Source: Sulfuricurvum sp.
GTDB lineage: Bacteria > Campylobacterota > Campylobacteria > Campylobacterales > Sulfurimonadaceae
Direction: 5' to 3'
NCBI GenBank assembly: GCA_030693335.1
Contig: JAUYAU010000017.1
Coordinates: forward strand, 1 to 64,000
Length of the DNA stretch: 64,000 bases
Positions within the stretch are counted from its first letter, which is position 1. Each line of letters opens with the position of its first letter. The notes beneath the pieces were generated by a model. That model made no database searches, had not been told where the DNA came from, and worked only from the letters and a program-made list of their open reading frames with translations. Shown here piece by piece: positions 275 through 55,641 of this stretch. Made by a program: the position numbers and the translations under genes.

Positions 275-2335
275 TTACGCAAGAATTTCAGTTGTTTCAT
301 TCATTTTTATGGAGTTGATCAACTCAACGATTGTGGCTTCTTCTTCCACTGCTTTTGCTTTTAAATGTTCATATTTTTCATGGTCAATGCTTAGGACTCG
401 TTTTGTAGGTATGGTAATGTGCTCTAATAGTTCAGGAGGCCATTGCTTAATTGCTTTCACAATAGTGCCAAATTGAGCATCAATTCCCCCTGCAATGACG
501 AAAAGCCAATAGCGATGGCGCATAATCCAATCAATCAGTTTTGCTTTCTTTTCGATATCTGATTGAGGATTACTGGTGTAAACCTCTGCTAAATCAATTT
601 CAAGATGAATCATGAAAGATTGAATGACATCAAAAAACATTTGGTTAAATTGTTTACTGTCAATGATGTCTTTTACCTCATCCAATTTATCGCTAAGAAC
701 TTGTAGGTGGTCAAAATCTATCTCTTCAAGTCGGTTGGTTTCATTGAGTTCTACTAGCTTCTCAGAGGCATCTTGAATGTTTATAAAAAGATTTTCAATC
801 ATCTCTTGTTTATCAACTGCTTCTTTGAGGATTAAGTTTGTTTTCTCAATCATTTGTTTGACATTGCGCGCTGCTTCCTCTGTATCTGGATACTCAATTG
901 AGAGAGGTTGCTTGATTAGAGAAAAATCAATGTATTTTTCAATAGCCTCGGCAAAAGGCATTTCGATCGCACCTGAGATTTGAGCCCCGCCTTCGGTAGA
1001 ATTGACGGTTGTAATAAATGATGCTGTTTTTTTAATAATGTCTTGAATGGTGTTTCTAAAAATATTCCAATAAAATGTCGTTCGGATGGTTCCCTCTCCT
1101 CCATATTTTAGAGTGAAGATATCATGTCCTTCAGGTTTTTCTTCATTAATCGTAAAGGTATGATCTTGGGCATGTGAGGTATTGTCTTCACCAAATGCAA
1201 GATCTTGTCCAATAAAAATAATATTTTTAAAATTTAACATAACGGCGAGCTCATGTGCTAAATTTGCAGCACTCATACCGCTGCCCAAATAACCATAATC
1301 ATCAAATCCGAAATATTTTGTATAGCCATGAGGGCGCATTTGCAAGAATAAGTTTCCGGTTCTTATCGCATCTTTGACCGCTTTATGGATAATGGAAACA
1401 CAAACAAAATTAACATCTTTTTGAAATTCCAACGAATTGTTTTCAAAAAACTTTCCTGTTTCCGGTACCCGTTCAAGTACGGTTACAAAATCAGGCTTAA
1501 TTCCATTTTTCTCTAAAATCGGGAAACTTGCATCGACGCTGATGATGGTTACATGGTCTTGAATGCTTTTCAATAAAGGGATTTGTTTCGTCAAGCTGGG
1601 CCCAGTTGAAACAATAATGACGGTTTCTCCCTGCCCCTTTCCAAAAATCTTCGTAAACTTTGGCCCTTTGATCATGTCGGGCAGATTGGTAAAATGATGT
1701 TCTATCCCCATCAAAGAATCGATAGGGCAGTTTCCATGACCCATGACGACTTGCAAAAGCGTTTCTGCTAATACACTGGTTATTTTTGCAATATTGTCAT
1801 AGGCGGTTTTTATGTAATAGTCTGCGGATACTTCCAGTTCGAAGAGTCTGGCAAAAAGCTGACTTTCGTGTTCATTGAAATATTGATAAGCATCGGTGAA
1901 ATCAAACTCTTTTGTCGCTTCGATGATCAGTTTTTCTTCAGCAATTTCTTTTGAAAAATCAATTAAATTGAGCACAATGTACAACAACTCATAATTGGAT
2001 TCAAATAAAACGATTCGTTTGATTGCAGGAGAGTCCAGCGCCATTTTTAAATAGATACCGTTAGCAATACCGTATATATAACGATAGTGATACGTTGAGT
2101 GGCTTTGTTTGGCTTCAGCGAGCGTTAAAACATCCACAACAGGATTGTCGTACATAAAAAGATGGTTGTTGACGTCAAGAAGATTTATAGCAACGGGATC
2201 TTCTCCTTGAAAAAGTTCAAATTCTTTATTCTCTTGAATAGAAAAGATCTCAAGAGCCAAAGCTGAGTTGACTGAAAAAATGGCTTGAATATTTTTGCCA
2301 TAAACAGTATCAAGGGAAATAGATGTTTCATTCAT
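275..2335 (-). CDS. maf: Motility accessory factor Maf (DUF115), flagellin glycosyltransferase candidate
   Basis: A 686-aa protein, the usual Maf length. An alpha/beta N-terminal part is followed at residues about 235-400 by the MAF_flag10/DUF115 core, with VSTGPSL at 242-248, then SVDASFPIL and KPDFVTVLE, and a helical C-terminal region. Maf proteins in Campylobacter, Helicobacter and Aeromonas are needed for attaching pseudaminic or legionaminic acid to flagellin before export. It is the last gene of the pse operon; its ATG overlaps the amidase stop by 4 nt, and it converges on a flagellin gene, its probable substrate. The exact sugar transferred cannot be read from sequence. Confidence 0.9.
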   Translation of the reverse strand: MNETSISLDTVYGKNIQAIFSVNSALALEIFSIQENKEFELFQGEDPVAINLLDVNNHLFMYDNPVVDVLTLAEAKQSHSTYHYRYIYGIANGIYLKMALDSPAIKRIVLFESNYELLYIVLNLIDFSKEIAEEKLIIEATKEFDFTDAYQYFNEHESQLFARLFELEVSADYYIKTAYDNIAKITSVLAETLLQVVMGHGNCPIDSLMGIEHHFTNLPDMIKGPKFTKIFGKGQGETVIIVSTGPSLTKQIPLLKSIQDHVTIISVDASFPILEKNGIKPDFVTVLERVPETGKFFENNSLEFQKDVNFVCVSIIHKAVKDAIRTGNLFLQMRPHGYTKYFGFDDYGYLGSGMSAANLAHELAVMLNFKNIIFIGQDLAFGEDNTSHAQDHTFTINEEKPEGHDIFTLKYGGEGTIRTTFYWNIFRNTIQDIIKKTASFITTVNSTEGGAQISGAIEMPFAEAIEKYIDFSLIKQPLSIEYPDTEEAARNVKQMIEKTNLILKEAVDKQEMIENLFINIQDASEKLVELNETNRLEEIDFDHLQVLSDKLDEVKDIIDSKQFNQMFFDVIQSFMIHLEIDLAEVYTSNPQSDIEKKAKLIDWIMRHRYWLFVIAGGIDAQFGTIVKAIKQWPPELLEHITIPTKRVLSIDHEKYEHLKAKAVEEEATIVELINSIKMNETTEILA

Positions 2336-3684
2336 ACGGATTCCTTAGAATTGACGGGGGATATTGGTAGGACTGTTTTTACAAGATTGAGTGTTTTTAG
2401 GTAGGTAAGAAAATCCAATAATAATTTATCACGATATTTTCCTGCAACAACACTAATGCCTATGGGTAAACCATTTTTCCCTTTGAGAACAGGGATAGTG
2501 GCAGTAGGAAGCCCTAGGTAGGTCCAAATGATATTGGCATCGGGGATATCGGGGGTTGTCAGTCCGATGGGAGCTTCATCGGCGGTAGCCAATGTGAGCA
2601 AAATATCATACGATTCGATCCAGTCATTAAAAGCCACTGTTTCACGAGATTGTTTTTCCAATGCTTCTTGATATTGTTCTTTGGTGATTTTATTTCCTTC
2701 TTGGATAATATTATAAAAAATCGGACTCATCAGGGTGTGTTGAGCATATTCGTCTTTGAAATAATAGGCGAGCGATTTATCGTAAATGCATTGATGCGTT
2801 GTGTGGATCGTATCACAAAACACAGGTAGCACTGCTTCCTCAATCTCCAAGCGGGGAGACTGTAAAGTACAACACCATTGTTCAAAGGCTGCTTTTGCTG
2901 CGTCAGAGGCAAGGTCCCATTTTGGGTGTTTGACGATTCCGATACGAAATTTTTTCTCAGGAGCAGTATGATAGTTGTCAATGTGGTGATGAACGTACTC
3001 ATAGTTTTCTCCACGAACACGGGATGCCTCAAAAATGAGGACTAAATCCTCCACGCTGCGAGCAAAAAATCCAAGGGTATCGAGTGAATCGGTGGTTTTT
3101 AAAACCCCTATACGCGGAAGCACACCAAACGTCGGTTTAAAACCGTAAATTCCGCAATAGCTTGCGGGGCGGCTGATAGAACCTGCTGTTTGGCTTCCAA
3201 GTGCTACGGGAACCATCCCTGTCGCTACGGCAACGCATGAACCGCTAGAGGAAGTTCCTGGACTGCGTAAAAGATCATGAGGATTGCGGGTTTTGTCTTG
3301 ATAATGGACAGCGAATTCGGCGGTGACTGTTTTGCCTAGCATGAGTGCGCCTGAGCGTCTGAGATAGTGAACCATGCGTGCGTCATTACCTGGTGTAAAG
3401 TCCTGCCAGATGGGAGAACCCATTTGGGTTGGCATATCATAGGTATTGTAGATGTCTTTGACACCGATAGGAATAGCGTAAAGAGGATAGTCGGTTTGTG
3501 CATAGGTACTGATTTTGGTAAGCTGAGCTTGTATCACCTCTTCATCGACAAATTCCCATGCATGTACGGTAGGATCAATTTCCCGTATTTGTTTCAAAGA
3601 TGCTTGTGCAATCTCTTGGGGTGTAATGGCTTTTGCTTCCAATTGCTCTAATAATTGGGTTGCAGTGAGATGGGCTAGGTTCAT
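2332..3684 (-). CDS. Amidase-signature family hydrolase
   Basis: A 450-aa amidase-signature enzyme of the GatA/AtzF superfamily. The Ser-cisSer-Lys triad is visible: Lys76 in GVKD, the serine-rich GTSSSGS loop with cis-Ser near 146, and the probable nucleophile Ser169 in TAGSISRPAS. Family members hydrolyse amides to acid and ammonia. It overlaps the sugar amidotransferase upstream and maf downstream by 4 nt each, so translation is probably coupled. No GatB or GatC homologue is nearby, so it is not a tRNA amidotransferase subunit in this context. A role in supplying ammonia to the amidotransferase, or in trimming an amide on the glycan, is inference. Confidence 0.85.
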   Translation of the reverse strand: MNLAHLTATQLLEQLEAKAITPQEIAQASLKQIREIDPTVHAWEFVDEEVIQAQLTKISTYAQTDYPLYAIPIGVKDIYNTYDMPTQMGSPIWQDFTPGNDARMVHYLRRSGALMLGKTVTAEFAVHYQDKTRNPHDLLRSPGTSSSGSCVAVATGMVPVALGSQTAGSISRPASYCGIYGFKPTFGVLPRIGVLKTTDSLDTLGFFARSVEDLVLIFEASRVRGENYEYVHHHIDNYHTAPEKKFRIGIVKHPKWDLASDAAKAAFEQWCCTLQSPRLEIEEAVLPVFCDTIHTTHQCIYDKSLAYYFKDEYAQHTLMSPIFYNIIQEGNKITKEQYQEALEKQSRETVAFNDWIESYDILLTLATADEAPIGLTTPDIPDANIIWTYLGLPTATIPVLKGKNGLPIGISVVAGKYRDKLLLDFLTYLKTLNLVKTVLPISPVNSKESV

Positions 3685-4784
3685 AGGCTCTCTTTGAATT
3701 TGCCTTGGCGCATTGCTTTGAGGACATTGGTGTATTCTTCTTCCGTGATGTTTGCCATATCAAGAAATTCATCCAGGTAGACCGGTCGTTGCTGATCGTA
3801 TTTTTTAGCGACTTCAAACCCCTCTTCACGTGTGAGGAGACCTGCACGAACATCGGCGCTTGCCTGATCGGTTCCCCGTCCGAAACCGCGTTTCACAAAT
3901 TTCATGTGGTCATGGAGTGTCTCAAATTTACACTCATTGCCTTTAAATCCTTTGTAATGCCCTGGACGGTGCTCTTCTTTCCAATCGTACTCTTTTTTGA
4001 TGAATTCCATTTGGCGTTCATCATCCCAAAAAAGGTAATCTCCAAGATGCAGACCCACCACGCCAACACGTTCAATATCTTCGTAGCTTGGAAGTGCAAA
4101 AGGGGCTAAATCTTTGCGTGTAATCTCTTCGTCGATCATCTGCTCAGGAAAAAGCTTCGCGGAAACTTTGGTGAAGTAGTCACGATCAAATTTTTGGACG
4201 TTATCTTTGAAATCGGCACGACCGCTGCTTTCGCAAACGGATTCTCCCCAAATGAGAAGCGGGATGTTGTATTTGACGGCAATTTGCAAAGGAAAAGCCC
4301 CGACGCCGGCGTGACAATGCCAACAGGAATCGCCGATTTTGTAAAAGGATTTTACAAACAGTTTTTTCACGAGTGCTTTGTTGGGGGTGAACATAATATG
4401 ATCGATTTCAAGTTTCTCAAGGGCATTGTCAAGATTGTATTTACCTGTTTCAGAATACCAATTATGATTAAAGGTTACTGCAAGGGGTTTCATCCCGTAT
4501 ACTTTTTTAAGGACGTGAAGCTGAAATACGCTGTCTTTACCACCGCTTATGGGGATAATGCAATCGTAATTGTCCCCTGATTTTTCTTTATAGCTTTCGA
4601 GTGTTTCGCGTAAAACGGCTTCACTTTTTTTCCAGTTAATACGCATTTTTTGCTCTTGCGCACGGCAGGCTAAGCAGATGCCCAATTCATCGAACTGCAT
4701 CCCTTCGTTTGAGCTTGGCATGCAGCAGCGTGTACAATATTGTAAATACTCTTTGTAAAGAGGTTTTCCGTAATCGGCTGTCAT
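3681..4784 (-). CDS. pseA: PseA-type N-acetyl sugar amidotransferase
   Basis: A 367-aa protein with an N-terminal cysteine knuckle (C17, C20/C21 and C37, C40) and an N-type ATP pyrophosphatase loop SGGKDS at 80-85. This is the architecture of the WbuX/WbpG/PseA amidotransferases, which activate an N-acetyl group with ATP and replace its oxygen by nitrogen, giving an acetamidino sugar. In Campylobacter jejuni PseA is needed for the acetamidino form of pseudaminic acid. It lies in the pse operon between a GNAT gene and an amidase, with 4-nt overlaps on both sides. WbpG-type enzymes can use HisH/HisF-like partners for ammonia; none is encoded next to it here. The family is clear, but the exact substrate is inferred from context. 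Confidence 0.85.
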   Translation of the reverse strand: MTADYGKPLYKEYLQYCTRCCMPSSNEGMQFDELGICLACRAQEQKMRINWKKSEAVLRETLESYKEKSGDNYDCIIPISGGKDSVFQLHVLKKVYGMKPLAVTFNHNWYSETGKYNLDNALEKLEIDHIMFTPNKALVKKLFVKSFYKIGDSCWHCHAGVGAFPLQIAVKYNIPLLIWGESVCESSGRADFKDNVQKFDRDYFTKVSAKLFPEQMIDEEITRKDLAPFALPSYEDIERVGVVGLHLGDYLFWDDERQMEFIKKEYDWKEEHRPGHYKGFKGNECKFETLHDHMKFVKRGFGRGTDQASADVRAGLLTREEGFEVAKKYDQQRPVYLDEFLDMANITEEEYTNVLKAMRQGKFKESL

Positions 4785-5323
4785 TGTTGACCTTTTAAAT
4801 AATCGTTATAAAGTAATCCGTATTCCACTATATCGGCAAATTCACCATTTTTGAAAATGGCATCCCGTCGTTTTCCTTCTTGTGTGAATCCCAGCTTAAG
4901 TGCAAGTTTTTGCATTCCGACATTGTCAGTATGTGTCCCGCAATGGATTCGATGCAGCTTCAAGGTATGAAAAGCGTAATCAAGTAAAAGTTTTCCTGCT
5001 TCATATCCGATCCCTTTTCCGTAAGCGCAAGGGTCTCCGATCAAAATAGCAAATTCGGCACTGCGGTTTTTGAGTGAAATTTGTTGCAAAGAGAGGTTTC
5101 CAAGGTGCTGATGGTTTTCTTTTAAACAGATGGCAAAAACAGTGTAGGCTGGATTATCGCTCACGCTGGCAATATAGGCTTGTGCCATTTCAGTGGTGTA
5201 GAGGTGTTCCCCATGGGAGTTATAGCGGCATACTTCGGGATTGTTTAGCCAAGAAGGGTAATTGCCATGGGCATCTCTCTTCTCCAGTGGTCGTAAATAC
5301 AGACGTTCCCCCTCGATTTTCAC
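4781..5323 (-). CDS. GNAT N-acetyltransferase (RimJ/RimL type)
   Basis: A 180-aa GNAT protein. It starts GERLYLRPLEKRDA and carries the acetyl-CoA binding stretch YGKGIGYEAGKLLLDYAF and the HCGTHTDNVGMQKLALKLGF motif typical of RimJ/RimL-like enzymes. The start codon is GTG at 5323, overlapping the stop of the upstream aminotransferase (GTGA). Next to an aminotransferase and an oxidoreductase, it probably acetylates an amino group newly placed on a sugar. It is distinct from PseH at 9604-10056, so the operon encodes two sugar-type acetyltransferases. The substrate is unknown. Confidence 0.85.
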   Translation of the reverse strand: MKIEGERLYLRPLEKRDAHGNYPSWLNNPEVCRYNSHGEHLYTTEMAQAYIASVSDNPAYTVFAICLKENHQHLGNLSLQQISLKNRSAEFAILIGDPCAYGKGIGYEAGKLLLDYAFHTLKLHRIHCGTHTDNVGMQKLALKLGFTQEGKRRDAIFKNGEFADIVEYGLLYNDYLKGQQ

Positions 5324-6618
5324 AACAATTCCTCACGATTTTTCCACACTTTTTCAAACGCATGCACGACATCGTCCATATCAGCTTCGGTCATTCCCGG
5401 ACGCATAAACTCATGCGTTATCAGACGATTATAATGCATATCCTCTGTTACTGGGCAAAGCCCTTTTGGATAGGTAACGTTACTGAGGCTAAAGGGATAG
5501 CCATCGCGTCCAAAGGCAATGCGTTCTTGATAGAGAGGTTGGAGATACAACGGCTTGACGTATCCGTAGCTCAGAAGGACAATGGACTCTTCACGTAACA
5601 GTGTTGGAGGCAGTTCGGCTTTAACGGCATCAATAAAACGGTTACGGTGCATGCCAGCTATTTTTTCATCAAACTGGAGAGGATGGACGTAAAACGCGTG
5701 TTTGGAAGATAGGCGAATTTTAGTCGGAAGAATACAAGGAATTTGGGCTAATTTCTCGTTGAGGTAGTGGGTATTGGCTAACCGCTGTGTTAGTAAATCG
5801 GGAAGCTTTTTAAGCTGTTCTCTGGCAATAGCCGCTTCGATCTCTGTCATACGGTAGTTAAATCCCACCATGTTGATGAGTTCGCTTTTATCTTCGATCC
5901 CTTTGGCAGAGAGGACCGCTTCGGCATGGTTACGGATGAGACGCAGTTTGTGAGCGAGAGCGTCATTATCGGTGACGATAATTCCCCCCTCACCGCTGTG
6001 AATGTGTTTATGGTAGTTGAGTGAATAAATCCCAATGTCTCCCAGTGTTCCCGCAAATTTATCGTCTAACATTGCTCCGGGAGCTTGTGCAGCGTCCTCA
6101 ATCACAAAGAGGTTGTGCTTTTTCGCGAGGGCATTAATGGCATCACGATTATAGGGTTGCCCGAAGATATCAACGACAATAATCGCTTTGGTACGCGGGG
6201 TAATTTTAGACTCGATGCTGTTGACATCGAGGCAGTAATACTCTTCTTCGATATCGGCAAAGACAGGGATAGCACCATACACGAGAGCCGCCGTTGCAGA
6301 AGCACTCATTGTATAGGCTGAGACGATTACTTCATCCCCTGGGCTGATACCGCATGCACCTACTGCAGCATAAAGGCCCGATGTAGCCGAATTAACACTG
6401 ATGGCATGTTTGACACCGAAATAGTCGCACCACTCTTTTTCCAAAGCCCGTACTTCAGGCCCACCATAAAAATCGTCGTGCCATGTTCCCAGATAGGTGG
6501 AAAGTTTACCGCTGCGCAAAACGCGTAAAACGGCCTCTTCTTCTTCTGCCCCAATGGTATTATATGCGGGGAAAGGGGCGGTACGAAGTTTGTCCCCGCC
6601 GTTGATTGCAAGTATCAT
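5320..6618 (-). CDS. DegT/DnrJ/EryC1/StrS sugar aminotransferase
   Basis: A 432-aa PLP-dependent aminotransferase starting at ATG 6618 (MILAINGG). A longer reading to 6693 would run through the upstream gene; the chosen start gives the 4-nt ATGA overlap seen throughout the operon. The AT_I fold shows NSATSGL for the cofactor phosphate, EDAAQAPGA, and the Schiff-base Lys204 in NYHKHIHSGEGG. At 432 aa it is longer than PseC (375 aa). Family members put an amino group on a keto-sugar nucleotide or on a cyclitol. The preceding Gfo/Idh/MocA gene could supply a keto substrate and the following GNAT gene could acylate the product. Confidence 0.88.
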   Translation of the reverse strand: MILAINGGDKLRTAPFPAYNTIGAEEEEAVLRVLRSGKLSTYLGTWHDDFYGGPEVRALEKEWCDYFGVKHAISVNSATSGLYAAVGACGISPGDEVIVSAYTMSASATAALVYGAIPVFADIEEEYYCLDVNSIESKITPRTKAIIVVDIFGQPYNRDAINALAKKHNLFVIEDAAQAPGAMLDDKFAGTLGDIGIYSLNYHKHIHSGEGGIIVTDNDALAHKLRLIRNHAEAVLSAKGIEDKSELINMVGFNYRMTEIEAAIAREQLKKLPDLLTQRLANTHYLNEKLAQIPCILPTKIRLSSKHAFYVHPLQFDEKIAGMHRNRFIDAVKAELPPTLLREESIVLLSYGYVKPLYLQPLYQERIAFGRDGYPFSLSNVTYPKGLCPVTEDMHYNRLITHEFMRPGMTEADMDDVVHAFEKVWKNREELL

Positions 6619-7577
6619 AATGGGTACACCTTTGCAAAAGTTTGAAAAATATGTTCGTGAATTTGGAGATGCTCTTTGAAAATCTGACTGCATGTTTCAG
6701 GGCTTTCACGAAGCAAAAATTCAAGAGAGTCAAGTGCGTAATGGGAGAGGTTGGTCATAATCGTTTCCCGTAGGGAAAGGGTGAAATACCCTTCATAAGT
6801 TGGTGAGGGGATTTTGGAATAAATTTCAATTTTATCGCCTCCCTCAAGGATTTTAATGACCCCTGCTTCAAACCATAAGGTGAGTTCAAATAACGAATAG
6901 GCAGAAGTACTAAGAACCGATATGGTTCCATCGCCACGTTCAAGAGAAATACCGAATTCTCCGCACAAATCACCATGGCAATGAGATGCCCGACAGGGCT
7001 TTATGGCAGTTAGATTTCCTAAAAAGTGGTTCAAAACACCCATGAGATGGGAACCATTGTGCAGTAATCCTTTGGTGCATACCCCTTGAAATCCGAGGGA
7101 TTTTCCAAACTCTTTGTTATTAATTCGTGAAGAGAGGGCAATAAAAGCAGGATTGTATCGGCGCATGAGGTGGATAAGTATTTTTTTATTCGTACGCTGA
7201 AGTTGTGAGGAGAGGGAATGAAATTCTTCCTTGGTGGCAACAAGCGGTTTTTCGCAAAGGATATAGGAACAATCAGGGCGCTGTAAGAGTGCGGTTAGAT
7301 CATGAAAATGGGCCGCCGTGGATGAGGAAATAGAAGCAATATCAAAGTGTTCATCATGGCTGATCTCATCAACATTGGTATAGCGAAGCACTTCCCCCCA
7401 TCGCTCCATAAAAGCGAATACATTGAGCTCTGAGGGCTCGCAAATGGCACTTAGCTGTGTATGTGGATGTTTGGAGTAGGCATGTGCGTGACTGGCGATG
7501 GACTGTGAATCCTTAGAATCGATGAGACCGCCGATACTTCCTGCGCCGATAATAAGTGCTTTGAGCGGTTCGCCCAT
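6615..7577 (-). CDS. Gfo/Idh/MocA-family oxidoreductase
   Basis: A 320-aa protein with an N-terminal Rossmann motif (IIGAGSIGG, residues about 9-17) and the ILCEKPLVAT signature of Gfo/Idh/MocA dehydrogenases, where the Lys of EKP is the usual catalytic residue. Family members oxidise or reduce sugar hydroxyl/keto positions with NAD(P). The preceding gene ends directly before its ATG (0 nt gap), and the aminotransferase overlaps its end by 4 nt. The oxidoreductase-aminotransferase-acetyltransferase order resembles the logic of 3-acetamido sugar pathways such as WlbA/WlbE/WlbD. That comparison is functional inference only. Confidence 0.88.
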   Translation of the reverse strand: MGEPLKALIIGAGSIGGLIDSKDSQSIASHAHAYSKHPHTQLSAICEPSELNVFAFMERWGEVLRYTNVDEISHDEHFDIASISSSTAAHFHDLTALLQRPDCSYILCEKPLVATKEEFHSLSSQLQRTNKKILIHLMRRYNPAFIALSSRINNKEFGKSLGFQGVCTKGLLHNGSHLMGVLNHFLGNLTAIKPCRASHCHGDLCGEFGISLERGDGTISVLSTSAYSLFELTLWFEAGVIKILEGGDKIEIYSKIPSPTYEGYFTLSLRETIMTNLSHYALDSLEFLLRESPETCSQIFKEHLQIHEHIFQTFAKVYPL

Positions 7578-8576
7578 CTAGTGGCCTTTGGTCAGTGTTT
7601 CCAAAAACAAAGCAAAATCCATGCCGAAATTTTCCAGCGAAAGTGCAATGGGGGATAAGTGAGAAGGCTTGAGTCCCTTAAGTGTTCGAAACTGTTGGGA
7701 AGAGGGGAGCGGGAGTAAAAAACTTCTGTTAGAACTTGGGAGATAGGAAATGACATTTTTACCCATGAGCGCTGCTGTGTAGAGCGCCATCGTATCAAAT
7801 CCGAGGATGATTTTGGCACTTAACAGCTGATGGGCGAGCTCAAACGTGTTGGCATCGTTGATCTGTACCCGCACGTGTGGATATTTTTGGAGAATTCTTT
7901 TAAATCCTGATGACTTTTCGCTGGGATGAAGTCGGATGGTGAGTCCTGAGCATTCAAACCGCTCAAAATTTTTCAAAATATCCTCAAGTGCTGTGTATTG
8001 GGTAAATCCCCAATAATTTTCATCTCCATAGGTAGATTTGGCAACGGCATCGGTGGGTTCGCTCAAAAAGAGGAGGTTTTGCGTTTGAGGTATGTTTTTA
8101 GATTTAGCTTCATGGATCAGTTTTTGGAGATAAAGATTAGGGAGTGCTATGGGGTTAGGAAGATGAAGATCTAATGCAAGCTGTAGTGCTTTTTCATCAT
8201 GCACGGCAGTAAAATCTCCGCAATTTGTTTCCCATTTGTCATCAGGGTATCCAAACCGTTCACGATAACTGCTCCAATGATCCAAAAATGCGATGGTTGG
8301 GATGCCGTGCTCTTTGCAGTAGGCGACATAAGGACGCTCCACTTTTTCTTGCCATCCCGTACCAAAAAATAAAGCATCAGGTTTGAGCACTTCAAGCTGT
8401 TGTACCGCATCATCGATGGGAGTAAAGGGGAGGGAATTACGTTCGCAAATAAGTGCCATTGGACTTTTGGAATGAGCAAAGATTTGCCATATTACGTCAT
8501 GATGGCGATGTTGATCGATCATAGCGTAAAGTAGTTGGGAACACCCTGCATCGTGCGAAACGACGGCAATGGTCAT
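7578..8576 (-). CDS. Unrecognised protein of the pse operon, possible GT-B glycosyltransferase
   Basis: I do not recognise a named family for this 332-aa protein. It reads as two Rossmann-like halves. The N-terminal half begins IAVVSHDAG and contains KPDALFFGTGW and GIPTIAFLDHW; the C-terminal half contains TIRLHPSE and ILGFDTMALYTAALMGK followed by VISYLPS. The last stretch resembles the C-terminal nucleotide-binding part of GT-B glycosyltransferases and UDP-sugar epimerase-like proteins. It overlaps pseI by 4 nt. No signal peptide or membrane segment is apparent, so it is probably cytoplasmic. Transfer or modification of a Pse-related sugar is an inference. Confidence 0.7.
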   Translation of the reverse strand: MTIAVVSHDAGCSQLLYAMIDQHRHHDVIWQIFAHSKSPMALICERNSLPFTPIDDAVQQLEVLKPDALFFGTGWQEKVERPYVAYCKEHGIPTIAFLDHWSSYRERFGYPDDKWETNCGDFTAVHDEKALQLALDLHLPNPIALPNLYLQKLIHEAKSKNIPQTQNLLFLSEPTDAVAKSTYGDENYWGFTQYTALEDILKNFERFECSGLTIRLHPSEKSSGFKRILQKYPHVRVQINDANTFELAHQLLSAKIILGFDTMALYTAALMGKNVISYLPSSNRSFLLPLPSSQQFRTLKGLKPSHLSPIALSLENFGMDFALFLETLTKGH

Positions 8577-9607
8577 TGAATCAATTCCCAGGCAAGTGGG
8601 GTTCCCTTAGAAGCACTTTTTTTAAACGTTTTCCCCAAAACTTCTTTGAGATGTTTAGGAGCCATTCCAAATCCTGGACGAACCGAACGGACATTTTGTG
8701 CGGTTAGGATTTCACCCGCTTTGACATCTTGGGCGATGAAAAGACTGCGGGAAAATTCGCGTGATTTTAGGCTTTTTGGACTCAGATCATAGGTTACTTT
8801 TCCCATCAGTTTTTCGGTATCGCGTATAGCATTTACCATAGCACGAAACTCGTGTGGTTCAAGACTGAATGCGCTGTCGGCTCCCCCCATATCACGGCTG
8901 AGGATAAAATGTTTTTCGATAATACGAGCTCCCAATGCGACAGCGGCAATGGGAGCACTGAGACTCATGGTGTGGTCCGAGAGTCCTACGGTGACGTCAA
9001 AACGCTCAAGCATGTTCGGAATCGTGAGGAGATTCATCTCTTCGGGTGCGGCAGGGTAAGCAGAGGTGCATTTAAGGAGGGTGATTTGATCGTTGCCCAT
9101 ACGTCGGCAGGCATCTAATGCCTCTTGAATATCTTCGAGTGTTGCTATTCCCGTAGAGATAATTATGGGTTTTCCTTTTGCTGCGGTGTACTCAATGAGA
9201 GGGATATCGGTAATCTCGAAGCTGGCAATTTTATAGGCGGGAACATTCAGATTTTCGAGAAAATCAACCGCAGTAGGATCAAAGGGAGACGAAAAAGCTT
9301 GCATTCCTAAATTTTTGGCATGATTAAAAAGAGCTTCATGCCACTCCCACGGAGTCATGGCTTCGGCGTAGAGGTCGTAAAATTTGCGTTTGTCCCAAAG
9401 AGTACCTTGGGAGATCGTGAACATCTCATTGTCACAATCGAGTGTTATAGTATCGGGAGTATACGTTTGCAGTTTGATGGCATCGGCACCTGAGAGACTC
9501 ATTGCAGTGATGGTATCCAATGCGGTTTGAAGTGAGCCATTGTGATTGGCAGAGAGCTCAGCGATGATAAAAACTTTTTCATTAAGGTTGTGCTTGCCAA
9601 TGATCAT
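8573..9607 (-). CDS. pseI: Pseudaminic acid synthase
   Basis: A 344-aa NeuB-family synthase. It condenses 2,4-diacetamido-2,4,6-trideoxy-L-altrose with phosphoenolpyruvate to give pseudaminic acid. Visible features are FIIAELSANHNG near the N terminus, GADAIKLQTYTPDT, ISTGIATLEDI, LKCTSAYPA, VGLSDHTM and ALGARIIEKHF in the TIM barrel, and a C-terminal antifreeze-like SAF domain (KAGEILTAQNVRSVRPGFG). The sequence fits PseI better than sialic or legionaminic acid synthases, especially the TYTPDT and LWDKRK stretches, and pseG/pseH lie upstream. It overlaps pseH by 4 nt. Confidence 0.95.
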   Translation of the reverse strand: MIIGKHNLNEKVFIIAELSANHNGSLQTALDTITAMSLSGADAIKLQTYTPDTITLDCDNEMFTISQGTLWDKRKFYDLYAEAMTPWEWHEALFNHAKNLGMQAFSSPFDPTAVDFLENLNVPAYKIASFEITDIPLIEYTAAKGKPIIISTGIATLEDIQEALDACRRMGNDQITLLKCTSAYPAAPEEMNLLTIPNMLERFDVTVGLSDHTMSLSAPIAAVALGARIIEKHFILSRDMGGADSAFSLEPHEFRAMVNAIRDTEKLMGKVTYDLSPKSLKSREFSRSLFIAQDVKAGEILTAQNVRSVRPGFGMAPKHLKEVLGKTFKKSASKGTPLAWELIQ

Positions 9608-10056
9608 AGTATTCGCTCCAAGGTAATCATTTTTTTATTAGCGCGGCTTATTTCTGTAAAATTAAATTTTTGATACAAACGCAAAGCTCTGACATTGTTA
9701 ACAAACACCTTGGCAATAAGTTTGGATAGACCCAGTCTCAATGCATGATCGATCAATGCGTTCATGAGGACATGTCCAACCCCTCGCATATCCGGATTGG
9801 CATAAATCCCAAGTTCTGCAGAGTCTTTTGTAATATCGGTTAAATCAATGACTCCAACATATTCGGAATCTTTTTGGACTAAAAAATAGCACTTTTGTGT
9901 TGTTGAAGAGAGTAGATCGATAAAGTACAAATGATCTTCTAACGAAATTTCATTGTTGTTTATCATCCATTTTAGGATATTTGGGTGATTGCGCCATGAC
10001 AGAACGAGCTCTTTTTGAGTGAGGCTAAGCGTGGTAAAGTTGAGCAATTGAATCAC
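9604..10056 (-). CDS. pseH: UDP-4-amino-sugar N-acetyltransferase PseH
   Basis: A 150-aa GNAT enzyme that acetylates the 4-amino group of the PseC product (UDP-4-amino-4,6-dideoxy-N-acetyl-beta-L-altrosamine). The WRNHPNILKWM segment near residue 20, the GVIDLTDI strand, the acetyl-CoA loop GVGHVLMNAL and ALRLYQKFNF match Campylobacter PseH. ATG 10056 is preferred because MIQLLNFTTL aligns with the start of known PseH. This makes a 32-nt overlap with the end of pseG, longer than the other junctions of the operon. Confidence 0.93.
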   Translation of the reverse strand: MIQLLNFTTLSLTQKELVLSWRNHPNILKWMINNNEISLEDHLYFIDLLSSTTQKCYFLVQKDSEYVGVIDLTDITKDSAELGIYANPDMRGVGHVLMNALIDHALRLGLSKLIAKVFVNNVRALRLYQKFNFTEISRANKKMITLERIL

Positions 10057-10888
10057 GATTCCACTCCTCTATGATATTGTAGTTATGCCGTTTTAAATAC
10101 TGCACCATATCGTCTTGATTGTCCGCTGTTTTAAGTGCCACAAAAGGAATAGCCATAAAAAGCACTTCATGAACCATAACGCTTGGGGTGATGATGGCGA
10201 GGCTGCTTTGGTGAAGGAGTTTGGCTATTTCATTAGAGTTGACATGCAACGTAATGTTTCTTTTACTTTGACAATAGCTTTTGAGTTCATCTAGGTTGGC
10301 GTTGGCGGTGGTGGTGACAACGCATATACTTTGAGAATCGTCCAATGTTTTCAAAATCTTAGTGGTAAGATTGGCAGTATCGGCTCCCCCCATGGAGATA
10401 AACAGATCGTATTTTTTTTCTCTAGGGGTCATTTTTTCTTTTTTAAATTCATCGCGTATGAGCGTATACTCACTGCCGCATCGAAGTTCACAATGTACAG
10501 GGACTAACCCGATGTAGCGATTTGAATCGGCGCTGATGTTGTGATTGAGAAGAATATCGCAATGATGAGATGCGTACGTGTCATCAAGACTCATAATACT
10601 AACATTTGTTTGTTCTTTGATGATTCTTTCATCTTCTGCATGGATGCCGTAATGATCAAAAATGACCCTATCGATTTTCTGATTATGGATGAGGTTAATG
10701 AGCTCTTCGGGATTGTTAGAGGTTAAAATATACTTAGGATAGGGAATTTTATCCATTATGTTACCCGCTAAATTTTGGCAAGCAAATGCAACAGTCTCAT
10801 TAGGATACTGCTGTGCGAGAACCAAGGTGCGCATGATATGACCTAAACCGATTTGACTTGACGAATCAGCACGGATGAGAATATTCAT
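10025..10888 (-). CDS. pseG: UDP-2,4-diacetamido-2,4,6-trideoxy-L-altropyranose hydrolase
   Basis: A 287-aa GT-B-fold nucleotide-sugar hydrolase that releases UDP to give the free 6-deoxy-altrose derivative used by PseI. The N terminus IRADSSSQIGLGHIMR contains His17, the position of the catalytic histidine described for Campylobacter PseG. SMGGADTANLT and the C-terminal ITPSVMVHEVLFMAIPFVAL segment fit the MurG-like nucleotide-binding fold. Its start overlaps pseF by 4 nt and its end overlaps pseH by 32 nt. Confidence 0.94.
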   Translation of the reverse strand: MNILIRADSSSQIGLGHIMRTLVLAQQYPNETVAFACQNLAGNIMDKIPYPKYILTSNNPEELINLIHNQKIDRVIFDHYGIHAEDERIIKEQTNVSIMSLDDTYASHHCDILLNHNISADSNRYIGLVPVHCELRCGSEYTLIRDEFKKEKMTPREKKYDLFISMGGADTANLTTKILKTLDDSQSICVVTTTANANLDELKSYCQSKRNITLHVNSNEIAKLLHQSSLAIITPSVMVHEVLFMAIPFVALKTADNQDDMVQYLKRHNYNIIEEWNRDSIAQLYHA

Positions 10889-11571
10889 GAGAGGGACAAT
10901 ACTTTGTGCATGAGTTCCGCTCTATGCCAGTCTTCAGGGGTATCGATATCTTGCACAAGATGGCGTGGCAATACGATGGTTGTTGCCGCTTCGGAAAAAA
11001 TCGGTTTTCCTTCCAGCCAGGCATCGGGAGTCCCCCAGTAAAACTGTCCGACATCGTGATAGGCCTCTTCGAGGTCTTGGCTACGGGTTGCAAAATATTC
11101 GGGCCAAAACATCTCAATATTACCTGCATCGTCACGTTTAACGCCTCTAAAGATCGGAAACGGAAAAGTAGTAACGGGAAAAGCATAGTGTTTGTTATGG
11201 GTGATAAGAGCGTTATAGGCAGCTACAATGTCTTGAGCACGGATAAACGGGGCAGTTGCATAGATACAGCACGCTGCGTCAATAACCGATTGTTTTTGAA
11301 GTGTTTGAATGGCATGAGCGATGACTGGAATGGTGGCCGTATGATCATCACTCAATTCTTTGGGACGTATAAACGGTATTTCGGCCCCGAAGCTGCGTGC
11401 GACATCGGCGATTTCCTCATCATCCGTAGTAACGATGATACGATCAAACAGTTCGGATGCTTGTGCCGCCTTTATGCTGTAGGCGATAATGGGAAGTCCT
11501 GCGAAGGGTTTGATGTTCTTACGGGGGATCCGTTTGCTGCCGCCGCGTGCCGGTATGATAGCAACACGCAT
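10885..11571 (-). CDS. pseF: Pseudaminate cytidylyltransferase
   Basis: A 228-aa CMP-sugar synthetase that activates pseudaminic acid with CTP. The start is ATG 11571, giving MRVAIIPARGGSKRIPRKN, the conserved N-terminal nucleotide-binding loop. An upstream extension to 11667 is possible in frame but has no family support and runs into pseC. IVTTDDEEIADVA and the CCIYATAPF strand follow as in NeuA-type enzymes. The start overlaps the pseC stop by one base (TAATG). The order B-C-F-G-H-I reflects the pathway genes, although F acts last. Confidence 0.94.
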   Translation of the reverse strand: MRVAIIPARGGSKRIPRKNIKPFAGLPIIAYSIKAAQASELFDRIIVTTDDEEIADVARSFGAEIPFIRPKELSDDHTATIPVIAHAIQTLQKQSVIDAACCIYATAPFIRAQDIVAAYNALITHNKHYAFPVTTFPFPIFRGVKRDDAGNIEMFWPEYFATRSQDLEEAYHDVGQFYWGTPDAWLEGKPIFSEAATTIVLPRHLVQDIDTPEDWHRAELMHKVLSLS

Positions 11572-12698
11572 TAGAAACTGCATCCTTTGTAGGCGTATTT
11601 TTCTATCACTGCAAGTAGGGTATCTGCTACGTGCTTGGCATCTTCTATGGACATCTTTTGATGGCAAGGGATAGAGAGCTCACTTTTGTAAAACAGTTCA
11701 GCAGTTTGCAAACGTTGTTGCCCAAAACGTTTTTGGTAAAAGCTGTTTTGATAAATAGGTTTATAGTGGACTTGTACCCCAATGCTTTTTTCCTGCAATT
11801 CGGTAAAAATTTCCTCTTTAACACAATGAAGTTCTGGATTCAGTAAAATGGGGTAAAGGTGCCGTGCGCTTTGTTCATGCACATCGATGTGAATGGTCGA
11901 AAAAAGTTTATGGTTTTCAAATCGCTCATCGTAATAACGGGCGATAGTTTCACGTACATTGATAAAACGGTCAATCTTGTGCAGTTGTGACAATCCCAAT
12001 GCAGCCGCAAACTCCGTCATGCGAAAGTTGTGCCCCAAGCTTACCATATCCGAATTCCATAGCTGTTTCTTTATCATACCGTGAGAGCGAAAAAGACGTA
12101 AGTTTTTGGCGTATTCTTCATTATCGGTGACCACGGCTCCCCCCTCTCCCGTCGTGATAGGCTTGATGGCGTGAAAACTAAAGATGGTCATGTCCGCAAA
12201 AGAACCGATTTTCTGTTGGTTAATATCACTCCCTAGGGCATGAGAAGCATCGTCAATAACAACTAAATTATGCTTCTTTGCGATGCTCTCAATTGCGTTG
12301 ATTGCAACCGGTTTACCCGCAAAGTCAACAGGGATGATTGCCTTGGTATGCGTGGTGATGAGTGCTTCAATAAGTGTTTCATCGATGTTTCCATCCATTT
12401 TGACATCACAAAAAACAGGTTTTGCCCCTAGCGCAATGGCCATATTGGATGTGGCAACAAAGCTGATAGGGGTAGTGATGACTTCATCATTATGATCAAT
12501 ACCGCAAACGGAATAAGCAGCTAGCAAAGCGGAGGTGGCGGAGTTAAAAGTGATGCAATATTTGGCACCGACGTAATGGGCAATGGCCTCTTCAAATTCC
12601 TGAACTTTTGACCCTTGTGTCAGATGAGAACTACGCAAAATCTCTACAACGGCAGTAATATCGTCTTCTTCGATAAGTTGCGTTGAATAGGGGATCAT
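11571..12698 (-). CDS. pseC: UDP-4-keto-sugar aminotransferase PseC
   Basis: A 375-aa PLP aminotransferase of the DegT/StrS family. It aminates C4 of the PseB product to give UDP-4-amino-4,6-dideoxy-N-acetyl-beta-L-altrosamine. FNSATSALLAAY binds cofactor phosphate, VVIDDASHALGS follows, and Lys179 in FHAIKPITTGEGG is the Schiff-base lysine. GHNFRMTEFAAALGL is typical of the family. It lies 3 nt after pseB and overlaps pseF by 1 nt. Confidence 0.95.
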   Translation of the reverse strand: MIPYSTQLIEEDDITAVVEILRSSHLTQGSKVQEFEEAIAHYVGAKYCITFNSATSALLAAYSVCGIDHNDEVITTPISFVATSNMAIALGAKPVFCDVKMDGNIDETLIEALITTHTKAIIPVDFAGKPVAINAIESIAKKHNLVVIDDASHALGSDINQQKIGSFADMTIFSFHAIKPITTGEGGAVVTDNEEYAKNLRLFRSHGMIKKQLWNSDMVSLGHNFRMTEFAAALGLSQLHKIDRFINVRETIARYYDERFENHKLFSTIHIDVHEQSARHLYPILLNPELHCVKEEIFTELQEKSIGVQVHYKPIYQNSFYQKRFGQQRLQTAELFYKSELSIPCHQKMSIEDAKHVADTLLAVIEKYAYKGCSF

Positions 12699-12701
12699 AG
12701 G

Positions 12702-13724
<1,023 letters not shown>

Positions 13725-13743
13725 CTAACTTACTCTTGAATAA

Positions 13744-13758
13744 GCAAAAAGAGTACCA
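13744..13758 (-). promoter_or_regulatory. Sigma-54 promoter of the pse operon
   Basis: On the minus strand the 15-mer TGGTACTCTTTTTGC has the exact GG-N10-GC spacing of RpoN -24/-12 elements (consensus TGGCAC-N5-TTGC). The pseB ATG is 35 nt downstream of the -12 GC. A 25-nt stretch around it matches the fliD promoter region at 21 of 25 positions. In Campylobacterota RpoN drives middle flagellar genes. Confidence 0.8.
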
Positions 13759-13769
13759 TTTATAGGTAG

Positions 13770-15167
13770 TTATGAATTGGCGTTGGCTTGTGCATCAATT
13801 TGCATTTTGAGAGAGGAAAACTGTGAATTTATTTTACTGATCATAGAGTCATATGCGGCAAACCGTGCGGTCATTGATGCATAACGAGCTTCCAACAGTG
13901 CCAAAGAACGTTTTTTATTGACATCTAAAGATTTTAACTCTGCATCAGAGCCTTTAGTAAGTGTCGTAAGCGTTCCATTACTTCCAGTAAAGCGCGTCAT
14001 CAAGGTACTTAGTTGAGTGAAAATTCCATTCTCTGTAGTTGCATCTGATGCGACATTGCTGAAAAATTTGGATGAGGCAACGGCATCGGAGTTAAATTTA
14101 GCAGTAAAAGTAGAAGTCTTAAAGCTCATTCCTCCTGTTTCATCTAAATCAATTCCATACAGTGCCAGTGAATTTCCTTGGCCATTAATAGAAGTCATAA
14201 GACGGGTCACTTCGCGGCCGATAGCATTTATGGAGTTGTCACCGTTGAAAACTCCGGCTTTTCCTGCCTCAATGTTGGTGGTGGTCATCTCTTTAAGTTG
14301 ACTTATGAGGGTATTATAGCTTTTAACCAGAGTAGACATTTCCGCTGCGATCGTATCCACATCCTGACTAATGGAAATATTGGAAGTAATACTTGTACTG
14401 TCTTGGAGGAGATTAATCGTAACTCCGGGAGTGATATCCGTTATGACATTTGAACTGCGTGTTAAAGTAATGCCATTGTATTTAAAACTGGCATCAGCAG
14501 CAGCTTGTACTTCTTCCATAGTACCTGCAGGATTTGTTAGTGCATCATAGGTGATTAACTTTTGATCCAAAAAACCTCCGGTGTCTGTCGTAACAATTTT
14601 TTCATTAACTCCTGTTTCTTTTGAACGCAAAACGAGGCGATAGTCAGTCGCGCCTACTTGAAGAATAGAGGCTTGAATTTTATCACTTGCTTGGAGGTTA
14701 ATGGCATCTTTTAATTCTTCTAAAGTCATACTGCTGGTATAGTCAACTCCAAACGAAAGGCCCCCTGAAGTGAGCGTCATGGTTCCAGATCCTCCGCTGG
14801 CAATAGGGGCGGTGGCGGATGAAAATGTACCAGATTGCTGAATGTTATTTAAGGCCATTTTCGTATTTGAGATTGAGAAAGATTGGATGTTGACTCCTGC
14901 AGCAGCAGAAACGCTCACCGCACTCGTATTTCCGGATGTGGAACGTCCTTGATATAAAGCGTCATTACTTAAAGAGCTAACGCTGGTTTGAAATGAAGAG
15001 AGAAGGCTGTTAAGTAAACTAAGTGCCTGCCCTTTTTGTTTTTGAAGCGTGATTTTATTGTCAATAGGTGTAATAATAAGCGAAGTGTCTCTATTTTTTA
15101 GTTTATCAATAATATCAGCAGTAAGAACTCCAGAACCGATACCAAGAGAGTTAATAGTTCCAGCCAT
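13770..15167 (-). CDS. fliD: Flagellar filament cap protein FliD
   Basis: A 465-aa FliD (HAP2), which caps the growing filament and folds exported flagellin. The N-terminal FliD_N region (GTINSLGIGSGV, with coiled helices LLNSLLSSFQTSVSSLS), a flagellin hook IN-type motif and the C-terminal coiled coil (LDVNKKRSLALLEARYASMTARFAAYDSMI) are all visible. The C-terminal helix drives decamer or hexamer assembly in the family. It is followed on the same strand by the pse operon after a 60-nt gap holding that operon's own promoter. A sigma-54 promoter and a possible sigma-28 promoter lie upstream. Confidence 0.95.
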   Translation of the reverse strand: MAGTINSLGIGSGVLTADIIDKLKNRDTSLIITPIDNKITLQKQKGQALSLLNSLLSSFQTSVSSLSNDALYQGRSTSGNTSAVSVSAAAGVNIQSFSISNTKMALNNIQQSGTFSSATAPIASGGSGTMTLTSGGLSFGVDYTSSMTLEELKDAINLQASDKIQASILQVGATDYRLVLRSKETGVNEKIVTTDTGGFLDQKLITYDALTNPAGTMEEVQAAADASFKYNGITLTRSSNVITDITPGVTINLLQDSTSITSNISISQDVDTIAAEMSTLVKSYNTLISQLKEMTTTNIEAGKAGVFNGDNSINAIGREVTRLMTSINGQGNSLALYGIDLDETGGMSFKTSTFTAKFNSDAVASSKFFSNVASDATTENGIFTQLSTLMTRFTGSNGTLTTLTKGSDAELKSLDVNKKRSLALLEARYASMTARFAAYDSMISKINSQFSSLKMQIDAQANANS

Positions 15168-15203
15168 AATAAATCCTTTTGAACTAAATCTTTAATATAC
15201 AAT

Positions 15204-15231
15204 ATATCGACACAATAGGGTAAACTCTTTA
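15204..15231 (-). promoter_or_regulatory. Possible sigma-28 (FliA) promoter of fliD
   Basis: On the minus strand TAAAGAGT, a 12-nt spacer and GTCGATAT resemble the FliA consensus TAAAGTTT-N11-GCCGATAA. The spacing is one nucleotide longer. It lies between the sigma-54 promoter and the fliD ATG at 15167. Confidence 0.45.
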
Positions 15232-15250
15232 ATGGTCGTTAATTGAGTAA

Positions 15251-15265
15251 GCAAAAAAGATACCA
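15251..15265 (-). promoter_or_regulatory. Sigma-54 promoter of fliD
   Basis: On the minus strand the 15-mer TGGTATCTTTTTTGC keeps the invariant GG-N10-GC of RpoN promoters. It is nearly the same sequence as the pseB promoter. The fliD ATG is 84 nt downstream of the -12 GC. Confidence 0.78.
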
Positions 15266-15275
15266 TTGGCAGTTC

Positions 15276-15304
15276 TTGCATTTAGGAGCAGTGTTAGGTA
15301 TAAT
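15276..15304 (+). promoter_or_regulatory. Sigma-70 promoter of the SRP RNA gene
   Basis: TTGCAT (15276-15281), a 17-nt spacer and a perfect TATAAT (15299-15304) predict a start near 15311, just before the SRP RNA. It begins 11 bp from the divergent fliD sigma-54 promoter. Confidence 0.75.
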
Positions 15305-15311
15305 TCCATCT

Positions 15312-15420
15312 CTCTTCGTTAGACCTGTGCAAGGGTATGTACTGACAACGTGTCAGGGTAGGAATGCAGCAGCACATCGGTGCGTATTTTGTGCCGCAGG
15401 TATCTGGCGGGGAGTCTTAG
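15312..15420 (+). ncRNA. ffs: Signal recognition particle 4.5S-type RNA
   Basis: The domain IV signature is present at about 15351-15374: GTCAGG on the 5' side, a GGAA tetraloop and AGCAGC on the 3' side, the Ffh-binding symmetric loop. Flanking arms (AGACC near 15321 and GGAGTCT near 15410) can pair to close a single long hairpin, as in the short bacterial SRP RNA. The ends are estimated from pairing and from the promoter. The 15168-15457 gap holds this RNA and the promoters listed, and no protein gene that I can support. Confidence 0.85.
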
Positions 15421-54942: not shown

Positions 54943-55641
54943 TTACCCCAATAAACGTCCAATGGATTCACGTAAAAACTGTGTCTGATGCGCTGATGCC
55001 AGCACAGATGTATCCAAGATTCTGTTACTGCTTTGGAAATCGTTGATCGCTTTTGCCATATCAGTATCGGCGATTTGGCTTTTTGCCGCAGATGTTTGTG
55101 TGATTTGATTTAGTAACGAATTAGCCTGACTGATATAGTTATTGGCAACGGCACCAAGATCGCTTTGCGCAGAGGACAATGTGTCCCTGTACGATAAAAT
55201 TGCATCTTGGTTGTCCAGTGTAAGATTTTTTGGTGAGACACTGTTATCAAGTAGAGGCTTTCCATTGTAAGAGGTCGTAGCTATAATATCCTGCATCGAT
55301 GTTTGTGTACGTTGAAATTCAGCTTGCAGTGCTTGTTGGTCCAGAGTATTTAAGCTCGCACTGTTGCTGCGAACACTTAGATCATTAAGCTTCTGAGCTG
55401 ACTCAGAAAGGCTAGAGAGTGCTCCATCAGTAATTTGGGTCATCCCTATACTGTCATTCGTATTCATTAACTCTTGAGCATAGGTGTTAATTTGACTTTC
55501 CATCTGAGAAGCAATGCTGCGTGAGGCACTGTCTTCCATACTAAGTTGCAGTCCGGCTGCAATTTTGTCCAGAGTTTTATCTCTCTTTGTGCTTTGCTCG
55601 TTCATTTGAGGAAGAGCTTGATACTGTGTATTGAGTTGCAT
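54943..55641 (-). CDS. Short flagellin-like protein
   Basis: A 232-aa protein built only from flagellin D0/D1-like segments. The N terminus (MQLNTQYQALPQMNE, then LDKIAAGLQLSMEDSASRSIASQM) parallels the N-terminal helix and LSSGLRINSAxDDAA region of flagellins. The C terminus (DTDMAKAINDFQSSNRILDTS and QFLRESIGRLLG) parallels the flagellin C-terminal D0 helix. The variable D2/D3 domain is absent. It is much shorter than typical flagellins and diverged at conserved positions, so it may be a minor filament or junction component. A sigma-54-like promoter lies 34 nt upstream. Confidence 0.8.
   Translation of the reverse strand: MQLNTQYQALPQMNEQSTKRDKTLDKIAAGLQLSMEDSASRSIASQMESQINTYAQELMNTNDSIGMTQITDGALSSLSESAQKLNDLSVRSNSASLNTLDQQALQAEFQRTQTSMQDIIATTSYNGKPLLDNSVSPKNLTLDNQDAILSYRDTLSSAQSDLGAVANNYISQANSLLNQITQTSAAKSQIADTDMAKAINDFQSSNRILDTSVLASAHQTQFLRESIGRLLG

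Follow-up and report, generated by a model that had tools for sequence, protein, structure and literature searches.

The pse operon and the sequence upstream of pseB

The window analysed here is a 64,000-nucleotide stretch of DNA from Sulfuricurvum sp. (genome of 2.17 Mb in 18 contigs). Most of its closest named relatives are Sulfuricurvum MAGs, with a pseB identity of 86–96% (loci L033–L040). The features at the locus are all on the minus strand, as follows.

15250..15265, minus strand, sigma-54-like site before fliD, TGGTATCTTTTTTGCT (strict motif)
15204..15209, minus strand, sigma-28-like -10 before fliD, CGATAT (spacing to a -35 unclear in the window)
13770..15167, minus strand, fliD, directly upstream of pseB (PF07195 and PF02465)
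13743..13758, minus strand, -24/-12 element of the predicted pseB promoter, TGGTACTCTTTTTGCT (motif match and conservation)
13732, minus strand, predicted transcription start (by the usual sigma-54 geometry, 12 nt past the C of the -12 GC)
12702..13709, minus strand, pseB (TIGR03589)
11571..12698, minus strand, pseC (TIGR03588)
10885..11667, minus strand, pseF (TIGR03584; true start probably within the ORF)
10025..10888, minus strand, pseG (TIGR03590)
9604..10056, minus strand, pseH (TIGR03585)
8573..9607, minus strand, pseI (TIGR03586)
7578..8576, minus strand, extra gene, no Pfam match (weak, sub-cut-off match to surface carbohydrate model TIGR04396)
6615..7577, minus strand, extra gene, GFO/IDH/MocA oxidoreductase (PF01408)
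5320..6693, minus strand, extra gene, DegT-type aminotransferase (PF01041)
4781..5323, minus strand, extra gene, GNAT acetyltransferase (PF13302)
3681..4784, minus strand, N-acetyl sugar amidotransferase, WbuX/PseA type (TIGR03573)
2332..3684, minus strand, amidase-family gene (PF01425)
275..2335, minus strand, PseD/Maf-like flagellin-modification protein (NF050051, 458/670 bits, below the NCBIfam cut-off; PF01973)

The six genes pseB, pseC, pseF, pseG, pseH and pseI each exceed their own NCBIfam cut-off, and the PseD/Maf-like gene, near the contig end, is the last of seven genes past pseI. From 13709 to 275, the thirteen genes are separated by gaps of at most 3 nt and mostly overlap by 4 nt. 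This tight packing makes a single transcript likely for all thirteen, with internal promoters possible, in keeping with the operon-wide reach that the original prediction gave to a sigma-54 promoter before pseB.

The minus-strand GG-N10-GC on which that prediction was built is present, with correct coordinates and spacing: GG at 13757–13756, GC at 13745–13744, ten bases between them, and 34 nt between the GC and the pseB ATG (13709). The element, TGGTACTCTTTTTGCT, fits GG-N10-GC with TGG.AY and TTGCW context. A start near 13732, also predicted, agrees with the standard geometry of such an element and would give a leader of 23 nt to the pseB ATG, containing GAGGA.

A loose form of the motif (TGGCACN5TTGCW, up to 3 mismatches) showed no enrichment in the window, with 288 matches vs 276.5 in shuffles. 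This count was therefore rejected as evidence, and the pseB motif is unconvincing by itself; among the 200 of 288 matches listed, the pseB element alone has one mismatch. The strict 10-position rule, TGG.A[CT].{5}TTGC[AT], has three perfect matches in the window: before pseB, before fliD (15250–15265) and in a ribosomal-protein ORF (24206). It is conservation that raises the pseB element above chance, as described below.

Conservation of the element and the position of fliD

PseB was detected in 115 of 228 genomes of the family. There were 118 pseB places, of which 8 (truncated, second or distant copies) were left out and two (L212 and L218) could not be anchored, leaving 108 upstreams; two of these fall short of 110 nt, at 92 and 57 nt. 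Within 110 nt of pseB, a site with at least 9 of the 10 positions was found in 67/108 upstreams, and a perfect one in 59/108. The mean in 200 dinucleotide shuffles was 0.6 for sites with at least 9 positions and 0.08 for perfect sites (maxima 4 and 2). Controls gave similarly low counts: 0 perfect and 1 with at least 9 on the reverse strand, 0 and 0 in the segment from -310 to -200 nt, and 0 and 1 in the segment from -610 to -500 nt (n = 105 for each segment). In the genus of the window itself, 27 of the 29 pseB upstreams carry a perfect site and two have none. The distance to the gene is short and fixed across these orthologues, with the end of the motif 27–40 nt from the pseB ATG in 58 of the 59 perfect sites. 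In a tree of 48 PseB proteins (15 of 45 inner branches open), the site changes state 6 times, so it is mostly inherited.

Transcription of pseB from a sigma-70 promoter is highly improbable. There is a TATAAA 55 nt before the pseB ATG in the window, and the pseB upstreams of relatives that lack RpoN are A/T-rich with -10-like stretches, as judged by eye. However, TATAAW occurs within 30 nt 5' of the site in just 7 of 27 own-genus loci, a scan of the minus strand from 13600 to 15400 found no sigma-70-like site, and outside the genus no column off the sigma-54 element approaches the information content of that element.

The placement of fliD raises the question of read-through. In the window, fliD stops 60 nt short of pseB, no terminator was found between the two genes, and the interval holds the conserved sigma-54 site. 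Upstream of fliD, a sigma-54-like site lies 72–85 nt before the gene in the window and in all eight named Sulfuricurvum-type loci, and in 8/8 of those loci it is followed about 40 nt downstream by a sigma-28-like -10. Across the family, CGATWW (the sigma-28 -10) is found within 90 nt of fliD in 40/46 upstreams (shuffles averaged 6.6 and peaked at 14; the set began as 47 loci, with no match for L263, and includes two doubtful starts, those of L250 and L262). Before pseB, CGATWW is found in 6/108 family upstreams, and no sigma-28 -10 was found there in the window. These counts come from a positional test with shuffles, which replaced a loose sigma-28 pattern with a -35 that had dozens of matches in the window. 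A small bacterial SRP RNA is also encoded in this region, at 15316–15413 of the plus strand, between fliD and an rnhB-like gene.

Given the lack of a detected terminator and the sigma-54 and sigma-28 sites of fliD itself, read-through from fliD probably adds to expression of the pse operon. That read-through is the only source of pseB transcription, with the GG-N10-GC a relic or chance occurrence, is very unlikely. This explanation would fit the absence of the site at 8 loci where pseB lies no more than 45 nt behind fliD, but read-through is impossible where fliD sits on the opposite strand, and there the site is kept in 18/19 loci. A chance origin is further opposed by an expectation of fewer than one family locus.

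Where fliD is upstream on the same strand with a gap of 46–200 nt, the site is found in 32/35 loci, vs 0/8 where the gap is 45 nt or less (Fisher p = 1e-6; lack of room may contribute). All eight of these packed loci have a sigma-28-type -10 before fliD, at an unusual distance in L262 and with an additional sigma-54-like match further up in L256. Where the two genes diverge, the region between them has the sigma-54 site facing pseB and, at most of these loci, CGATWW facing fliD. The site is found in 6/11 loci with one to three ORFs between fliD and pseB and in 11/35 loci with no fliD within 1.5 kb of pseB. The 41 of 108 family loci without a site include 16 in fliD-led arrangements; the remaining 25 (24 with no fliD nearby and one divergent locus with a near-site) are unaccounted for.

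The fourth base of the motif is T or C in 62/67 pseB sites; in the window's genome, it is A in front of six genes for flagellar structure, a difference suggesting that strength or regulation may differ. We abandoned a scheme that grouped sigma-54 promoters according to the base following GG (A vs T or C), as fliD sites are mixed.

Outside the family, 80 pseB upstreams were hand-picked from 288 matching genomes of 397 in the phylum, with RpoN status entered by hand from a table. The group names used here are inferred assignments, drawn for f10 from a member whose upstream matches that of L052 (Sulfurospirillum sp. SCADC), for f7 from a resemblance to L078 and for f3 from a motif in common with L083 (C. 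concisus). The site was found in 18/18 Sulfurospirillum-like loci (f10), 0/21 Arcobacter-like loci (f7), 3/15 Campylobacter-like loci (f3), 0/12 Helicobacter-like loci (f2) and 1/14 loci of the remaining groups. None of the 20 RpoN-negative genomes has the site, vs 22 of the 60 RpoN-positive ones. Since eleven RpoN-positive members of f7 and f2 lack it, RpoN alone does not predict the site. Of 80 named pseB loci, 27 reach a score of 9 or more: these are 24 of the 47 taken as Campylobacterota (including C. concisus, L083) and 3 of the 33 others. These three (L087, L094 and L096) are all gammaproteobacterial, with sites 52–84 nt upstream, so the wiring may extend past Campylobacterota.

Of 15 Campylobacter-like loci, one has CGATWW before pseB, so a general sigma-28 wiring of pseB in that group finds little support. 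One f3 genome (G405, locus L319) does have CGATATAA 36 nt before pseB, which fits sigma-28 wiring in a Campylobacter-like genome.

Putative sigma-54 targets and regulators in the genome

Genome-wide, the strict rule has 41 matches, vs 11 for the pattern run backwards. Of the 14 matches that fall between genes, nine lie in front of pseB or a flagellar gene; their putative targets are a Flagellin_N protein, a FlgB-like rod protein, two rod/hook proteins, FlgI, FlgH, an LPP20-family protein, fliD and pseB. The other five lie in front of VanY, UDG, N-methylation, unknown and FGGY-kinase genes. A flagellin-like gene of 232 aa (54943–55641 of the window, minus strand), with Flagellin_N and Flagellin_C, has no perfect sigma-54 or sigma-28 match in its 200-nt upstream.

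The genome encodes FliA, RpoN and an activator ATPase. There are two full-length RpoN paralogues (L113, 1983–3248, and L114, 10633–11904), as in many relatives; one adjoins a NifA-like gene within a nif-like cluster, and the canonical one lies beside lptB-like and tsaE-like genes (neighbour names read from translations). Only two PF00158 matches were strong (scores of 254.6 and 241 bits), with the other seven at 29.2 bits or less; the strong pair comprises a NifA-like and a FlgR-like protein. The FlgR-like protein has a receiver and a sigma-54 activator (AAA+) domain. No HTH_8 (Fis-type) domain was found in it at E 0.001, and the NifA-like protein has one. H. pylori FlgR is reportedly enhancer-independent. 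Lacking a Fis-type DNA-binding domain, the FlgR-like protein could reach any GG-N10-GC promoter without an enhancer, and none would be expected at pseB. Entry into the regulon would then take just these 16 bases.

Among site-bearing genomes of the family, 60/67 have an RpoN match (table read by hand); the 7/67 without an RpoN AID match are all drafts (73–93% complete). According to the part of PMC9321776 available to us, Campylobacterota with the ancestral chemosensory class have RpoN, FlgRS and FliA, which are lost in Arcobacter.

Because the second RpoN adjoins a NifA-like gene, the pseB site could in principle serve that pair and link the sugar to nitrogen status. We judged NifA control of pseB to be most unlikely: the NifA motif, TGT-N10-ACA, was not found within 500 nt upstream of pseB, and seven own-genus genomes with a single RpoN match retain the site. 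A nifH-like ORF (L133, at 1480) is immediately preceded by a TAGAAC-N5-TTTGCA-like stretch without the GG of the usual -24 element.

Predicted timing and relation to known systems

The comparative evidence strongly supports the proposed control of pseB by RpoN. Very likely, the pseB element acts as a class-2 flagellar promoter used by RpoN and FlgR, through which the pse operon is turned on earlier than the FliA-class genes. The sequence data show directly that the element exists, that it is conserved and does not depend on where fliD lies, and that the genome encodes RpoN and a FlgR-like protein; transcription, FlgR dependence, use of the canonical RpoN copy and the temporal order we infer, the order ahead of the filament from promoter class membership. 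RNA polymerase with the canonical RpoN (the copy on the lptB/tsaE-like side) would bind the element as a closed complex, which phosphorylated FlgR, the activator of the hook and rod genes, would open. Transcription from about 13732 would then run across pseB and the twelve packed genes behind it, so that production of CMP-pseudaminic acid would begin at the hook stage, ahead of the FliA-dependent filament genes.

The original prediction had the sugar supply timed with filament assembly. Its link to the flagellar programme is supported, but supply would lead the filament rather than coincide with it, because the pse genes would fall in the sigma-54 class and fliD has a sigma-28 -10 in most relatives. 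Several polar flagellates need flagellin glycosylation for filament formation.

RpoN-dependent expression of rod and hook genes and flgE has been described (PMC7064773 and PMC11187230, in the portions available). The promoter proposed here resembles the RpoN/FlgSR class-2 promoters of C. jejuni and H. pylori in its GG-N10-GC and in pairing RpoN with a FlgR-type activator. It differs in that the target is a sugar-biosynthesis operon, whereas the C. jejuni RpoN regulon consists almost exclusively of flagellar structural genes in the section of PMC7677240 consulted. For C. jejuni, the pse genes are described as regulated by sigma-28 (an excerpt of PMC8540345), and the control of flagellin glycosylation is called not well understood (an excerpt of PMC4519771). 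In C. jejuni as in the window, pseB is tied to the flagellar programme, but through the sigma-28 class there and, as predicted, the sigma-54 class here, which makes the window's pse promoter a variant wiring.

Another parallel is the flaB-jhp0106 operon of H. pylori J99, where a flagellin-glycosylation gene is also under RpoN. From what is accessible of PMC5368276, jhp0106, a putative pseudaminic acid transferase gene, is RpoN-dependent through the flaB promoter, and in a csrA mutant only jhp0106, among it and the pse genes, is dramatically reduced. Unlike at pseB, RpoN acts there by read-through from flaB and on the transferase only. In the open-access literature searched (titles, abstract beginnings and selected passages), we recognised no description of pseB with a sigma-54 promoter.

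For Sulfurimonas-type and Sulfurospirillum-type bacteria, these data predict hook-stage expression of the sugar genes. At loci with divergent fliD, a single intergenic region would hold a sigma-28 promoter directed at fliD and a sigma-54 promoter directed at pseB. Such a pair would be a natural reporter for whether the sugar must precede the filament, one that the model pathogens would not reveal.

Among the named relatives, the promoter end is constant and the downstream genes vary. The pseB-C-F-G-H-I order is kept in L033, L034, L035 and L037, and likewise in L036 up to the contig edge. In L038 and L039, the site, pseB, pseC and a pseF-like gene are kept, followed by just a 45% PseI match, and no match to PseG or PseH was found downstream. 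L040 resembles these two; its PseI match is at 32%, and its PseH match is distant. We tentatively suggest, with a confidence that falls a little short of even, that the 16-base sigma-54 element and pseB (and pseC) act as a constant gateway to the flagellar programme for nonulosonic-acid cassettes that can be swapped, rewired by lineage through either a sigma-54 promoter of their own or fusion behind fliD with sigma-28 (or sigma-54 plus sigma-28). If so, sugar supply would stay under flagellar control, with relatives differing in the sigma factor and hence in the stage, and the sigma-28 arrangement reported for C. jejuni would be one outcome of rewiring.

Within the window, the amidase-family gene lies directly 3' of the sugar amidotransferase gene (2332–4784, minus strand), and a role in ammonia supply is conceivable.
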